Below are positions 4,901 through 32,063 of a stretch of 32,063 nt of DNA, piece after piece. Position numbers and translations under genes: made by a program. The notes under the pieces were generated by a model, which was given only the letters and a program-made list of their open reading frames with translations, searched no databases and had not been told where the DNA came from. Source of the stretch: a virus; IMG/VR virus record IMGVR_UViG_3300025109_000039, positions 1 through 32,063 of that record; one strand, written 5' to 3'. How positions within the stretch are numbered: position 1 is the stretch's first letter; each line of letters starts with the position of its first letter.

Positions 4901-7432
4901 CTATGCCTTCCCGCTTCTCGCATCATGCCTGCCGACTCGTGGTCGTACACTACCAAACGCGCGAGACAGTCGCGACGAGCTGATTCGGAGAGTGTCGTGC
5001 ATGATTGCCTCCGTTGTTCGCGGGCCGACTCTGATGATGTTCACGGTGCCACCACCCGCGCCTGCGCCTGCGTTCAGAGCGTCGACTCCTCGCTCGCCTC
5101 CTGCGGCTGCTACTCCCTGCGGCGAGAGCATAGCCTCGCCCTGCCTGGCCCGCACGAAGACCTCGTCGGACGCCATCGACTGCCCCGACAGGCCCGCAGG
5201 TATCATGCCGCCCGAGTGTAGCTGCGGCGGCTGCTCGGCTGCGATTGCTGCGATTGACGCAGCGCCAGCGATGCCAGCGGCAGCGGCAGCGACAATGCCC
5301 GCGGGGAACGGGACCGTTGTCAATCCGTTGATGACGGCCAATGCCGTCGAGATTATGGCAGACGTGAGCGAGACTGCCTTATTAGCTCGCCAGGCGTCGA
5401 GCGCTGCCTCCTTCTCTGCAGCTGACTGCTCCTCGAGGACAGCCTTCTCGCGCTCGAGCTGCTCTCTCGCTGAGTTGGTCAAATCGCCCATCAGCGCTTC
5501 GTCGATGTCTGCGATTCTGTCCGACGTCTCTGCGAACGCCACAGCCTTCTCGTCATATACCACCTTGGCCATCGCGCCGATAGCGTCGAAGACCTCTCGG
5601 TGCATGCTCATGATTTGAGCATTGACGACGGCAAGGTCTTCCATGTCCTTGTCCCACGTCTCTCGCATGAACTCGCCCTGGGTCTGCGAGTTCGCCATAC
5701 GCTCTGCATGTAGCTCGGCGTCCATCTGCTTCTGTAGCTCGACCGCCTCCTCTGCGTTCCGCACACCCTCGAAGCGCATATCCCTCTCGGCGTTCGCCAT
5801 CTCGACCATGAGGTCTGCGCGCTTCTGAGCATATTCCTGCTCCACCCCTTCGATGCGCTTCATCGCCGCCTCTGCAAGCTCCGCCTTCTTCGCTGCGGAA
5901 ACCCCAGTGGCGGCGATTGCATCTCCTGCCGTCTCCTGAATTGTCTCGAGCAGACGCGCTTCCTCTGCGTCGAGCTTCTCGATGTCTTCGAGCCTGTCGA
6001 TGGTCGCTTGCTCGTTCGCCTTCGACCACGTCTCGACTTGCGTCGTCGCTGCCGCCATGTTCGCCTTGGCTGCTGCTGCGTATGCCTTGCTCCGCGCCGC
6101 TCTCTTCTTCTCGTCCTCTGCTGCTTTCTTGCGAGCCTCTGCGAGCTTCTTCTCCTTCTCTGCCAGGTCTCTTGATGCGTCCTGCGCCTTCAGTCGAGCA
6201 TCAGACAGCCTCGCCTCTTCCATCTCGAGCAGCTTCGTCCAGGTTCGCAACTCCTTGGCGGCTCCGATTCGTCCGCCATGACGCAGCTTCCCGTCCTCAT
6301 AAATCTGATTACTGGAGCTGTTCAGCTCCCGCTCGATTTGGGCGACATCCTCCAGAGTCTTCGTATGGTCGCGCCAAGGAGTTGCCTTGATTAGATCGTT
6401 CAAAAACTTCTGCTTCTCTCGAGCTTCGGCGACCACTCCGGATAGCTCGGCGATCTTCCCCTTGTATTTTTCAAGGTCTGCGGAGGAGTCGCTCTGCGCC
6501 GCTGCCGCATCCGATGTCTCTTTCTTGAACCGCTCGACCTCGTCGGTCAGCCCGATGAACTTCTCGGCCACGAAGGCAACCGCCTTGGCTGTCGCCTCCA
6601 GCACCCCCGTCTCCGAGAGGACTTGAAACATCTCGCCGAGCTTGGTCACGATGACAGTCACCACAGGAATCAGAGGCTCGAGCGCGCCGTCCTTGAGTCG
6701 CTGCCACTGTCTCGTTGCGATGGTGACAGCGTCGGTCAGGAACTCGCTCTCCTTCGCTGTCTCGTTGCTGATGATGCCAGCAGCCTTGACCATCTCCGAA
6801 GACTTCCGAATCGCGGCGCCGCCCTCGTCGAAGGCTGCGAGCATGTCGACCGCGCCTCGACCGAGCAGCGCTTGCGCCGCTTGCGCTCGCTTGCTCTGGC
6901 TGGTCATGGCGACCATGCCGTCTGCGATGAGTGCGATCTTCTCGTCGAGCGGGACTGCCTCGAGCTGCTCGAAGGTCAGGTTCAAGTCCTCGAGTGCCTC
7001 GACTTGCATCTTGCTGCCTTTTGCAGCCATGCCGAGGTTGACGCTGAGCTTCTGGATTGCGTTCGCTGTCGTCTCTGCTGCGACGCCGCCAAGCTCGAGC
7101 GCTCCTTGCATGACTTGCAAGTCCTCTGCCGAAGTGCCAATGGCGCGGGCCTTCTTGGCAATTACGTCGGCTCTAGCTGCGAAGTCGATAGTCGCCTGCG
7201 ATGCTTTGACGAGCGCAACGCCGAGCGCTGCTGACGCGGCGACCATCGCCATAAGAGCGGGGTGCGCCTTGACAAACTGCTTCCCCATCGCGAGCGCACC
7301 GCCCGCGCCCTTCTTGTTGAACGTATCGTCGAACGAGCCGCCGAGCTTGTCGCTGTCTTGCTGTACTTGGTCGAGGCTGCCTTGGAGCTGGCTGGTATCT
7401 CCGACGAACTCGAACCGAATCTTGCGTGCCAT
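4901..7432 (-). CDS. Tail tape measure protein
   Basis: 843 residues, the longest gene but one. The tape measure sets tail length and passes through the tube lumen. The N-terminus is followed by an alanine-rich hydrophobic stretch (about residues 55-77), long charged heptad-like coiled coil with many K/E/A residues (about 320-480), and a second hydrophobic, alanine/glycine-rich segment (about 690-745), then a glycine-rich C-terminus with GGMIPAGLSG and an RQGEAMLSP motif typical of tape-measure ends. It lies just after the tail-chaperone locus, the standard position. AAGGAG precedes the ATG by 6 nt. At about 0.15 nm per residue, a family rule of thumb, the tail would be roughly 125 nm. Confidence 0.93.
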   Translation of the reverse strand: MARKIRFEFVGDTSQLQGSLDQVQQDSDKLGGSFDDTFNKKGAGGALAMGKQFVKAHPALMAMVAASAALGVALVKASQATIDFAARADVIAKKARAIGTSAEDLQVMQGALELGGVAAETTANAIQKLSVNLGMAAKGSKMQVEALEDLNLTFEQLEAVPLDEKIALIADGMVAMTSQSKRAQAAQALLGRGAVDMLAAFDEGGAAIRKSSEMVKAAGIISNETAKESEFLTDAVTIATRQWQRLKDGALEPLIPVVTVIVTKLGEMFQVLSETGVLEATAKAVAFVAEKFIGLTDEVERFKKETSDAAAAQSDSSADLEKYKGKIAELSGVVAEAREKQKFLNDLIKATPWRDHTKTLEDVAQIERELNSSSNQIYEDGKLRHGGRIGAAKELRTWTKLLEMEEARLSDARLKAQDASRDLAEKEKKLAEARKKAAEDEKKRAARSKAYAAAAKANMAAATTQVETWSKANEQATIDRLEDIEKLDAEEARLLETIQETAGDAIAATGVSAAKKAELAEAAMKRIEGVEQEYAQKRADLMVEMANAERDMRFEGVRNAEEAVELQKQMDAELHAERMANSQTQGEFMRETWDKDMEDLAVVNAQIMSMHREVFDAIGAMAKVVYDEKAVAFAETSDRIADIDEALMGDLTNSAREQLEREKAVLEEQSAAEKEAALDAWRANKAVSLTSAIISTALAVINGLTTVPFPAGIVAAAAAGIAGAASIAAIAAEQPPQLHSGGMIPAGLSGQSMASDEVFVRARQGEAMLSPQGVAAAGGERGVDALNAGAGAGGGTVNIIRVGPRTTEAIMHDTLRISSSRLSRAFGSVRPRVGRHDARSGKA

Positions 7433-7441
7433 GCTCGCTCC

Positions 7442-7795
7442 TTACTGCTGCAACCAGAAGTCCAGCGTCTTCTCGCTTGCGCCGCCCTGCTTCCACGCAG
7501 AACGAAGGCCCGCGCCTTGCTTGTCCTTGCTCGGTGCCGGGTGCGACATCAGCCAGACATGGGCCATGTCTCCTGCTGTCGCTGGCGTCCCGGTCATCAT
7601 GCGAAGGTCGGACGGCTTCAGCGCAGACGCTCGTCCGCTCCCCTTGCGGTGGTCTGTCGCTCGAAGGATCTGCCAGTACGCTCGAAGTTCGAGACGTGTC
7701 TCCTCGTCGAACTGGAGCAGCGCGTGCGGCTCCCCGAACAGCGAGACTCCTAGGTCGAGGTCAAGGAAGTCTCCGAACCCGTCCGGGGTACAGTA
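7442..7795 (-). CDS. Tail assembly chaperone extension (gpT-like), start unclear, probably frameshift-expressed
   Basis: This frame is open from about 7920 to a TAA at 7444-7442, 9 nt before the tape measure ATG. It lies in the -1 frame relative to the upstream chaperone ORF. The translation looks like real protein (for example DFLDLDLGVSLFGEPHALLQ, then RLELRAYWQILR, ending in LDFWLQQ). It has no ATG, GTG or TTG before an internal ATG pair near 7600. A -1 ribosomal shift near GAT-TTT-ACT (7800-7792) would fuse it to the upstream ORF; coordinates given start there and yield 117 residues. The alternative is a CTG at 7741 with AGGAG 5 nt upstream, giving 99 residues. A sequencing indel is a third option. 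Confidence 0.62.
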   Translation of the reverse strand, partial: YCTPDGFGDFLDLDLGVSLFGEPHALLQFDEETRLELRAYWQILRATDHRKGSGRASALKPSDLRMMTGTPATAGDMAHVWLMSHPAPSKDKQGAGLRSAWKQGGASEKTLDFWLQQ

Positions 7796-8247
7796 AAATC
7801 CACGCGCTCCTGCACCTCCTTGGCAGGCGACGGGAACGCAATCATCAACTTGGTCACCATCTCGTTGCCGAGCACTGTCACCTGGTCTTGGGAGTAGCCC
7901 GCTTCGTACAGCTCGCCCATGACCTCAGCACCGAACTCCATCAGACCGTCGACGCCGCGCTCGAAGTCTCGACGCTTCGTCTCCATCTCCAGTTCGCGAT
8001 GTCGCCAACAGATGCCAATGGCTGCGCCGACTGACTCTTCGACAAGCTCGGCTTGGACGTCTTCGATGTTGCCGACGGCGTCTCGATTGATGTTCCACAA
8101 GCCCGACTGGATGAGTGGCTTCAAGAGTCGAGCAGCGATAGACGGTCGCGGGACGCGGTAGTCGTGGTCGCCGTGACCTGGCACGAACGCAACGAAGTAG
8201 GCGGGCGAGCTATCAGGAATCGTCCGAGGATGCTGGAGTCGACGCAC
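7750..8247 (-). CDS. Tail assembly chaperone (gpG-like)
   Basis: The frame lies between tail tube and tape measure, where siphophages encode tail assembly chaperones. Its protein contains FVAFVPGHGDHDYRVPRPSI, a mixed helical middle, and ends TGSETSLTST. The start is uncertain. There is no ATG at its head; a GTG at 8247 (165 residues) has AAGG about 9 nt upstream and overlaps the 55-residue ORF by 35 nt. Alternatively the frame is entered by +1 shifting at the end of the 55-residue ORF (UCC-UGA-U, 8218-8212), which would make a 209-residue fusion. A -1 shift near its own end may add a further 117 residues. Confidence 0.68.
   Translation of the reverse strand: MRRLQHPRTIPDSSPAYFVAFVPGHGDHDYRVPRPSIAARLLKPLIQSGLWNINRDAVGNIEDVQAELVEESVGAAIGICWRHRELEMETKRRDFERGVDGLMEFGAEVMGELYEAGYSQDQVTVLGNEMVTKLMIAFPSPAKEVQERVDFTVPRTGSETSLTST
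7792..7821 (-). other. Candidate -1 ribosomal frameshift signal between chaperone ORFs
   Basis: On the minus strand AAGGAGGTG (7821-7813), a full match to the anti-SD, and a second CAGGAG (7812-7807) sit 14 and 8 nt upstream of TTTT (7798-7795). The upstream frame reads GAT-TTT-ACT here. tRNA-Phe on TTT can slip back one base and re-pair with TTT because the preceding base is T. Internal SDs about 10 nt upstream stimulate -1 shifting in E. coli dnaX. The site is not a canonical X-XXY-YYZ heptamer, so this is a candidate only. Neither SD is followed by a start codon in the downstream frame. Confidence 0.42.
8212..8221 (-). other. Candidate +1 frameshift site (GAT TCC TGA T)
   Basis: The 55-residue ORF ends GAT-TCC-TGA, followed at once by TAG in the same frame. 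Skipping the T at 8215 places the ribosome on GAT-AGC-TCG in the downstream chaperone frame. UCC-UGA-U is the exact core of the animal antizyme +1 site, and Listeria phage PSA uses a CCC-UGA +1 site in structural genes. I see no adjacent SD or pseudoknot that would stimulate it. The alternative is initiation at GTG 8247. Confidence 0.4.
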
Positions 8248-8380
8248 CGTTCCCGCCCTTCTTCTTCGCCGCCTTGGCGACTTCTTTGGAGAGTTCAGCT
8301 TGAAGGAGCGCGATGTCCGACGAGCGTCGCTTGCGAGCGTCGGCAATCTGCTCTTGTAGTTTCTCGACCTTGCTAGCCAT
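8213..8380 (-). CDS. Small charged helical protein upstream of tail chaperone (55 aa)
   Basis: Starts MASKVEKLQEQIADARKRR and ends PASSDDS. It is lysine/glutamate/alanine-rich, predicted as one helix or coiled coil with a lysine patch (AKAAKKKGG). The ATG at 8380 shares one base with the tail-tube stop (TGATG), so translation is probably coupled; an upstream in-frame GTG near 8410 would lie inside the tail-tube gene and is less likely. It overlaps the next chaperone frame and may be its N-terminal part through +1 recoding. Function is inferred from position. Confidence 0.65.
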   Translation of the reverse strand: MASKVEKLQEQIADARKRRSSDIALLQAELSKEVAKAAKKKGGNGASTPASSDDS

Positions 8381-8937
8381 CAGAGAATCACCGACGGCTC
8401 TGCGGCCCAACAGGTGCCGTTGATGGTGACCGTGTTCGGGTCGCCTTCGGCGATGGCGCAGTTCACCGTGCAGTACGGCAGGACGAGCTTGTGAACGTCG
8501 GCCGCGTTGCCCTGGTTAGTCACAATCCATCGGAGGTCGATAGTGAAGACCTCGGCATCGTCTGACGCGATGGAGGTCGACAGAGTCGACACCCAGTTGG
8601 AGCCTGCGTAGCCCTCGTTGTTGATGATGTCCACCAGCGCTGGAGCGGAGGCATCTGTCAGGTCCCGGAAGTAGGCACTGAACGAGAAGGTGATGGCTTG
8701 GTCATCACCGTACCGAATACTCGGCGGACTCGTGAGCTTGCCGCGGTCGAGGTAGCTGGAGACGGTCGCCTGCGGGATAGTCAACGACAAGTCGCCAGCC
8801 TCGTAGGCGACGGTGTAAGTGTCCGCGCCTGAGTTGATGCCAGCGGCACCGCTGAACGCGCCGCCGCCTGCGGTGCACTGAGAACCCAGCGTCAACTGCC
8901 CGTCGAGCTTAGTGTGGATGATTGTGGATTCGGTCAT
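8380..8937 (-). CDS. Major tail (tube) protein
   Basis: 185 residues, a typical size for a siphophage tube protein, located between the neck genes and the chaperone/tape-measure cluster. The sequence is rich in short beta strands (DTYTVAYEAGDLSLTI, then ITFSFSAYFRDLTD) and ends CWAAEPSVIL. The order neck, tube, chaperones, tape measure is the main support. The ATG follows an AGGAGAATAAGGAC leader with two SD-like elements. No direct motif is diagnostic. Confidence 0.78.
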   Translation of the reverse strand: MTESTIIHTKLDGQLTLGSQCTAGGGAFSGAAGINSGADTYTVAYEAGDLSLTIPQATVSSYLDRGKLTSPPSIRYGDDQAITFSFSAYFRDLTDASAPALVDIINNEGYAGSNWVSTLSTSIASDDAEVFTIDLRWIVTNQGNAADVHKLVLPYCTVNCAIAEGDPNTVTINGTCWAAEPSVIL

Positions 8938-31020: not shown

Positions 31021-32063
31021 TCAATGCTCCTCGCCTTCCGCGCCTGCCAGGTCTCGCGCTGCGTCAGGCAGCGAGCGAAGCGCCAGCGACAGGAAGCGGT
31101 CGGACCTCCATGTTACCTGCTCGACTACGAACAGGTACTCCGAGAACTCCAACTCGCTGTCAGTCAGGAGCAATACATCGCCTGGCTCGAGGTGACCAGC
31201 GACTTCCGCGTCGACTGTATACGAAACGAGAACAGCTTGGAGCGCATGCTTGCGACTGCGCCATGACAGAATCGCCGCCGCTGTCGCATCGTCCCAGACG
31301 ACATCGGATGTCAGCTCGAGGGGCACGGTCAATGGCAGATTGTTCGCGTCCCTGTATCGCGTTCGCGAGGTGTGGCAGTAGAGATTCGATCCTGCTCTGC
31401 CAGCAGCCAGCTCGGCGGGGTCTGCTGATAGCGTCTTCGTTGACCAATACATACCGTCCTTGATGTCATTCTGGTAGTCGATGCTGATGTGGTTCGCGAC
31501 ATCGTCTCGACTCGAGAAGGACGCGCGCCCCTCTCTGAACGCTGTCGGCGCAACCATCGCAGACGAGCGGGACGGATACTCGTGGTACCTCGGTTCGGTT
31601 GTCGCGGTGATGGAAGCGACTGCGTCGTGGGAGGTCGTGTCGAAGGGCCAGACAACTGGATGCCAGCCGCCGTCGGTGCCGACCGAGATTCTCCACGAGA
31701 CAGGCAGAATCGTGGACAGATGGTCTTCGACCCACGACCACGGAGAGAAGCGCTTGTCGGGAGAACAACAGATGGCGACGTCGATGCGGTACTGGTTGAG
31801 CCTGGGGATGGCTGCGGCGAGCCTGCCGCGGTCGATTCTCTGCGACGACGAGCGCAGCATATAGCGCAGCACGTCTCCCGCGCCAGTCATCGCCGAGCCG
31901 TCGGGGTGCATCAGCCCGCCGCCGTCGTCGTGAAACTTGCAGAAGAACGTGTCGTCGACTTCGGGATGGTTACTCGTGCCCGAGCCGATCGTGTTGTTCG
32001 TCATCTCTGCGAGCGCAACGGCGTGTCCGTTCGCGTCGACCGTGTTCGTCACAGCGCACCGCT
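31021..32063 (-). CDS. Tail hub-like minor tail protein, C-terminal part (runs off window edge)
   Basis: Open to the window edge; together with 1-1275 it makes one 576-residue gene once the 587-base overlap is collapsed. The right copy of the overlap differs from the left in 18 bases but in only one residue (Thr here, Ser at the left, in the EVDD(S/T)FFCKF stretch). The C-terminus (HLEPGDVLLLTDSELEFSEY, then LFVVEQVTWRSDRFLSLALR) suits a tail-hub or baseplate-type domain. It ends in TGA at 31023-31021. Confidence 0.75.
   Translation of the reverse strand, partial: RCAVTNTVDANGHAVALAEMTNNTIGSGTSNHPEVDDTFFCKFHDDGGGLMHPDGSAMTGAGDVLRYMLRSSSQRIDRGRLAAAIPRLNQYRIDVAICCSPDKRFSPWSWVEDHLSTILPVSWRISVGTDGGWHPVVWPFDTTSHDAVASITATTEPRYHEYPSRSSAMVAPTAFREGRASFSSRDDVANHISIDYQNDIKDGMYWSTKTLSADPAELAAGRAGSNLYCHTSRTRYRDANNLPLTVPLELTSDVVWDDATAAAILSWRSRKHALQAVLVSYTVDAEVAGHLEPGDVLLLTDSELEFSEYLFVVEQVTWRSDRFLSLALRSLPDAARDLAGAEGEEH
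31477..32063. repeat. Right copy of imperfect terminal overlap (partner 1-587)
   Basis: Gap-free alignment with 1-587, 569 of 587 bases identical (96.9%). The first 192 bases match exactly and all 18 differences lie in the remaining 395. This sharp change is expected if two strain sequences were joined during assembly. It marks the contig closure point. Confidence 0.9.

Follow-up and report, generated by a model that had tools for sequence, protein, structure and literature searches.

The sequence analysed here is a single virus record of 32,063 bases (referred to below as the window), whose source phage is uncultured, and the locus of interest lies on its minus strand. ORF2, a putative G-like chaperone reading frame of 165 amino acids, runs from a GTG start at 8247 to a TAG stop at 7752-7750; both the GTG and the N-terminus, MxxLxxxRTIPD, are conserved among close relatives. 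It overlaps ORF3, a T-like extension in the -1 frame relative to ORF2, which reads from a TAC codon at 7795 to a CAG codon at 7445, encodes 117 amino acids and is closed by a TAA stop at 7444-7442. At the junction, AAGGAGGTGCAGGAGCGC GTG GAT TTT ACT, the candidate slip heptamer G_GAT_TTT (G_GAU_UUU in the mRNA) occupies positions 7801-7795, and GGATTTT occurs only this once in the 32 kb window, both strands considered. The heptamer is preceded at 13 nt by AAGGAGG (7815..7821), a Shine-Dalgarno-like candidate stimulator, and followed after 6 nt by a candidate stimulatory stem-loop (7732..7788) with arms CCCCGGACGG (7788-7779) and CTGTTCGGGG (7741-7732). The next gene downstream of ORF3, at 4901..7432, encodes a tape-measure protein that matches PHROGs tape-measure families (best E 6e-17), and the upstream gene at 8380..8937, which matched no family in Pfam or PHROGs searches, probably encodes the tail tube protein, judging from its position. 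All of these genes are on the minus strand.

A small, conserved ORF of 55 amino acids (MASKVEKL..DDS, minus strand, 8380-8213) overlaps the start of ORF2, and its end, TTCC-TGA, is invariant in 8/8 close-clade sequences. A +1 shift leading from this ORF into ORF2 at an antizyme-like TCC_TGA was considered and rejected, since ORF2 has its own conserved GTG at 8247 and no such shift is needed; differences within the overlap also fall mostly at ORF2 third positions. The record carries a direct repeat at its two ends, positions 1-587 and 31477-32063; the copies differ at 18 of 587 bases, which looks as though reads from a variant had closed a genome that is circular or terminally redundant.

The first relatives examined (L001/L009, L002/L010 and L003/L011, together with L014/L015, fetched through the tape measure) display the same -1 relation between ORF2 and ORF3 as the window, and the block GTGGATTTTACTGTACCCCGGACGG is unchanged in L009, L010 and L011, its place being taken in L014 by GTAAATTTTACTGCACC. 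A profile of ORF2 alone added L025, L026 and L029, which carry GTGGGTTTTACTG, GTAAATTTTACTG and GTGGGTTTTACTG, respectively. The final ORF2-profile scan of viral_contigs yielded 55 homologous loci, with identities down to approximately 25%; these, with the window and minus one truncated locus, provide 55 complete junctions. All 55 carry a slip-competent -1 heptamer at the homologous place, a count to be read with the caution that the junctions were collected by ORF2 similarity and that the profile includes residues coded by the heptamer; the scan patterns GAA[ILV]G[ITV]CW and EL[YH]E[AE]GY[TS] lie well upstream of it. The heptamers are GGGTTTT (25 junctions), GGATTTT (24), AAATTTT (3), and GGATTTC, GGGAAAT and GGGAAAC (one each), and in every junction the ORF2 stop follows 9-16 codons later. 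Grouped by the C-terminal 80 residues of ORF2 with a threshold of 90% identity, the junctions form 18 clusters, of which nine employ GGATTTT, and the first three bases of the heptamer are always GGA, GGG or AAA. On the ORF2 tree, some of whose deep branches are long and uncertain, the heptamer has changed at least eight times, remaining slip-competent throughout. As background, among 27,970 codon positions from these phages' long frames, 4 carry a slip-competent heptamer in frame, or approximately 0.2% per 12-codon interval; the 18/18 clusters at the junction far exceed what chance would give. The window's G_GAU_UUU does not fit the X_XXY_YYZ pattern, its first three bases not being identical, and relatives L025, L029, L014 and L026, as well as the L051 clade, do fit it. 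Of 100 Phe codons counted in six genes of the window, 9 are TTT.

The recurrence of this arrangement bears upon two explanations that do not involve the ribosome. The preliminary description had allowed for an indel, in which case sequencing or assembly would have split a single gene, an error that a lone contig could not exclude; since 55 junctions, in 18 clusters and from many metagenomes, share one frame relation, an indel is effectively excluded, and its probability is negligible. The four-T run at the slip site could in turn suggest that the -1 frame is generated by transcriptional slippage. However, runs linked to transcriptional realignment exceed 7 A or 8 T (PMC3711429), and the GGGAAAT, GGGAAAC and GGATTTC of relatives include no run longer than three, so that this explanation is also effectively excluded, its chance being minute.

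The question of how the ORF3 frame is entered is answered by the same relatives. In the window this frame is open from 7924, and the preliminary description had taken it as protein-like from 7442 to about 7920; its protein-like character stands, but it begins at the heptamer (FYCTPDG..), because relatives have stops in the -1 frame upstream. The distance from the end of such a stop, a TGA in each case, to the -1 TTT codon is 21 nt in L011 and 9 nt in L025 and L014, and in L063, L064, L072 and L081 a -1-frame TGA lies immediately before the heptamer; therefore, frame entry must be on the heptamer itself. The encoded protein is conserved from this point, as FYCTPDGFGDF.DLDLG in close relatives, which are 50-73% identical to the window over the -1 frame, and as FYR..GG.DAVA.EIGL.YCGDP.AFY in distant ones. 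Between the slip site and the ORF2 stop, differences show a slight excess at ORF3 third positions, as expected for a doubly coding stretch, and past the ORF2 stop they fall strongly at ORF3 third positions (279/460). No ATG, GTG or TTG occurs in the ORF3 frame ahead of its conserved part, the first ATGs lying approximately 65 codons into ORF3, and in this respect the window agrees with the initial observation of a -1 frame lacking a normal start at its head. An internal start at the in-frame GTG at 7803 was rejected, as relatives have GTA, GCG, GAG or other codons there. A separate start for ORF3 had also been proposed at CTG 7741, where it would depend on reinitiation past the ORF2 stop, and another non-standard start could be imagined. 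In the window, TAGGAG does lie 5 nt before CTG 7741; however, the codon is CTC in L014, TTA in L029 and ATG in L025, the -1 frame is conserved for approximately 18 codons upstream of it, and the stops that abut the heptamer in four relatives leave no codon for any start. A start at the CTG is effectively excluded, and separate initiation of ORF3 as a whole is very improbable. The stops and the conservation from the heptamer onwards thus indicate that the switch occurs on the heptamer, without initiation.

On these comparative grounds we are highly confident that a ribosomal -1 slip at GGAUUUU joins ORF2 and ORF3 in a putative tail chaperone locus; comparative evidence, above all the 55/55 junctions, lends strong support to the earlier suggestion that a tail chaperone resembling lambda G/GT is recoded by a -1 shift. 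In the mechanism that we propose, most ribosomes would read ORF2 through to its stop, generating the 165-residue G-like protein, and a minority would slip by -1 on G_GAU_UUU (7801-7795), the P site being occupied by tRNA-Asp and the A site by tRNA-Phe, continuing in ORF3 to produce the predicted fusion of approximately 151 + 117 = 268 amino acids. The tRNA-Phe would re-pair perfectly on UUU, and the tRNA-Asp pairs poorly once moved from GAU to GGA. H_HH.U_UU.Y (H being U, C or A) is among the most effective heptamers in E. coli, where both A_AAU_UUU and the tetramer U_UUU are shift-prone (PMC4066793). The rate of slippage could be low, because of the poor tRNA-Asp re-pairing and because G_GGU_UUU is absent from the listed most efficient E. 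coli heptamers (PMC4066793).

The imbalance between the two sites evokes a variant of the same mechanism, namely -1 slippage of a single tRNA on U_UUU, in which the 5' GG has no re-pairing role and the slippage is not tandem. Perfect A-site re-pairing next to a poor GAU-to-GGA exchange speaks in its favor, as does the ability of U_UUU to function as a tetramer in E. coli (PMC4066793). The restriction of the first three bases to GGA, GGG or AAA across 18 clusters argues against it, and so does pea enation mosaic virus, where a block of P-site re-pairing at GGAUUUU reduces shifting to 36-40% (PMC4737148); the variant is rather unlikely. It is probable that G_GAU_UUU serves as a programmed -1 site for bacterial ribosomes, with the Shine-Dalgarno-like element and the stem offsetting the weak P-site pairing; descriptions of this site were otherwise located only for RNA viruses that infect eukaryotes. 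From its distribution among relatives, it likewise seems likely that this heptamer has been kept by half the clusters of a widespread phage family over long evolution and is interchangeable with canonical heptamers.

Of the two candidate stimulators, the upstream one was described initially as a full anti-Shine-Dalgarno match 14 nt before the slip site. The match is present and conserved in the close clade, but its GGAGG (7819-7815) ends 13 nt before the heptamer, within the 9-14 nt over which such elements stimulate -1 shifting (PMC5009743). All close-clade sequences (8/8) have GGAGG at this exact distance, a conservation that is partly due to that of the Glu-Val codons it forms. Conservation of both frames and of the Shine-Dalgarno element in homologous phages, named in the preliminary description as support for recoding, holds for the frames, together with the heptamer, and, as regards the element, for the close clade. 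Distant clades have a weaker version (GAGGT at 12 nt) or one displaced to 16-19 nt, and no such element could be seen in the L039 junction. Pairing of GGAGG with 16S rRNA probably raises the slip rate, and this sequence is a likely Shine-Dalgarno stimulator. CAGGAG, placed 8 nt upstream in the preliminary description, ends in fact 6 nt before GAT and is not conserved in relatives.

The downstream stem, of 10 bp, folds in the window, L010 and L011, all of the window's GGATTTT subclade, with dinucleotide z-scores for the full arms of -1.4, -2.4 and -1.8, respectively (in the z-score set, L010 and L011 appear under the handles L032 and L031). The codons TCG CTG TTC GGG GAG, in and around its 3' arm, are identical in all three (5/5), compared to 28% of same-residue codons further downstream; the expectation for such a five-codon run is approximately 0.002, the run having been picked out by the fold. 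Strong downstream stems are also found in L038 (z -3.9), L046 and L051; the stem is not common to all relatives, z-scores are modest, and 90-nt downstream folds gave no clear signal. The evidence for the stem as a stimulator that probably raises the slip rate is suggestive. The heptamer of L038, G_GAU_UUC (L038:4020-4026), is followed by a stem stronger than any other in the set, which hints that stronger stems could accompany weaker slip sites.

The function of the locus is suggested by its surroundings. Seven divergent members, the window included, have a tape-measure gene downstream; it is directly next in the window, L034, L038, L039 and L040, and comes after a gap of approximately 570 nt in L045 and L051, the candidate in L041 giving no match. 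In this distant clade (L041, L045, L051), the approximately 570 nt between ORF3 and the next long ORF leave room for an extra gene, one that the clade of the window lacks. Neither ORF2 nor ORF3 matched any family in Pfam or PHROGs, and no counterpart of either was found in cultured phages, plasmids or bacterial genomes; low similarity is usual within the class of tail assembly chaperones (PMC5009743). AlphaFold modelled ORF2 with low confidence (mean pLDDT 59), and a fold search against the PDB gave nothing useful. A viral structure library returned N15 GT and several tail assembly chaperones as low-ranking matches; because the model is weak and these matches all have E > 1, the fold offers only a hint of a chaperone. 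A tail assembly chaperone is the best reading, given the position before the tape measure and the G/GT layout, and we infer that ORF2 and ORF3 are probably a siphophage locus of the lambda G/GT type. By analogy with gpG and gpGT, the probable task of the protein pair is to load the tape measure and to recruit subunits of the tail tube.

This work adds a hitherto unannotated, putative tail chaperone family from approximately 55 viral contigs; automatic gene prediction would usually overlook the second half of the chaperone or assign it a wrong start. Events of this kind are known; the new parts are the family, for which Pfam, PHROGs and cultured phages gave no match, and its recourse to GGAUUUU, half of its clusters carrying a heptamer outside X_XXY_YYZ. 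The family also offers naturally evolved variants of a single slip site, which has taken the form of six heptamers, GGAUUUU and GGAUUUC being non-standard ones; on these variants, bacterial -1 re-pairing rules and compensation by stimulators can be probed.

Among known systems, the -1 frameshift of E. coli dnaX employs A_AAA_AAG with a Shine-Dalgarno sequence upstream and a hairpin downstream, and its efficiency is much higher. The window displays the same elements in the same order, with a different heptamer; the dnaX shift shortens its product, whereas that of the window would extend it. The slip site of lambda gpG/gpGT is G_GGA_AAG, in contrast to the G_GAU_UUU of the window. The lambda locus, as here, encodes a short protein and a -1 extended one in overlapping ORFs just before the tape-measure gene; the two loci have no sequence relation detectable by Pfam or PHROGs, and the close clade of the window differs in its conserved Shine-Dalgarno-like candidate stimulator. 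For the lambda frameshift, PMC5009743 cites Levin 1993 and Xu 2004. Literature matches for GGATTTT frameshifting in phages were nil, and those listed for GGAUUUU frameshifting concerned viruses of eukaryotes, plus one general review. The motif 'twoonefour' of PRFect, proposed in PMC10885494 for annotated actinophage (SEA-PHAGES) tail chaperones, is a 2-1-4 pattern that, judged by its name, would cover GG-A-TTTT; as presented there it comes from annotation, without comparative proof. Since it may be the same pattern, GGATTTT is not claimed here as a first in phages.

The preliminary description had viewed the slip site as unusual and possibly of a new type. It is unusual in departing from X_XXY_YYZ, but it is not new, being the heptamer of umbraviruses: pea enation mosaic virus RNA2 shifts to -1 on GGAUUUU, as do four other umbraviruses (PMC4737148; also PMC5009743). 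The umbravirus site serves a plant RNA virus polymerase and eukaryotic ribosomes, with no Shine-Dalgarno element, unlike the phage locus, and a stop codon follows it after 3 nt, compared to 14 codons in the window. In both systems the heptamer is identical and a stem-loop, a candidate one in the window, lies within a few nucleotides downstream, and just as AAAUUUU replaces GGAUUUU in two umbraviruses (PMC4737148), the same exchange is found among the relatives of the window's phage.
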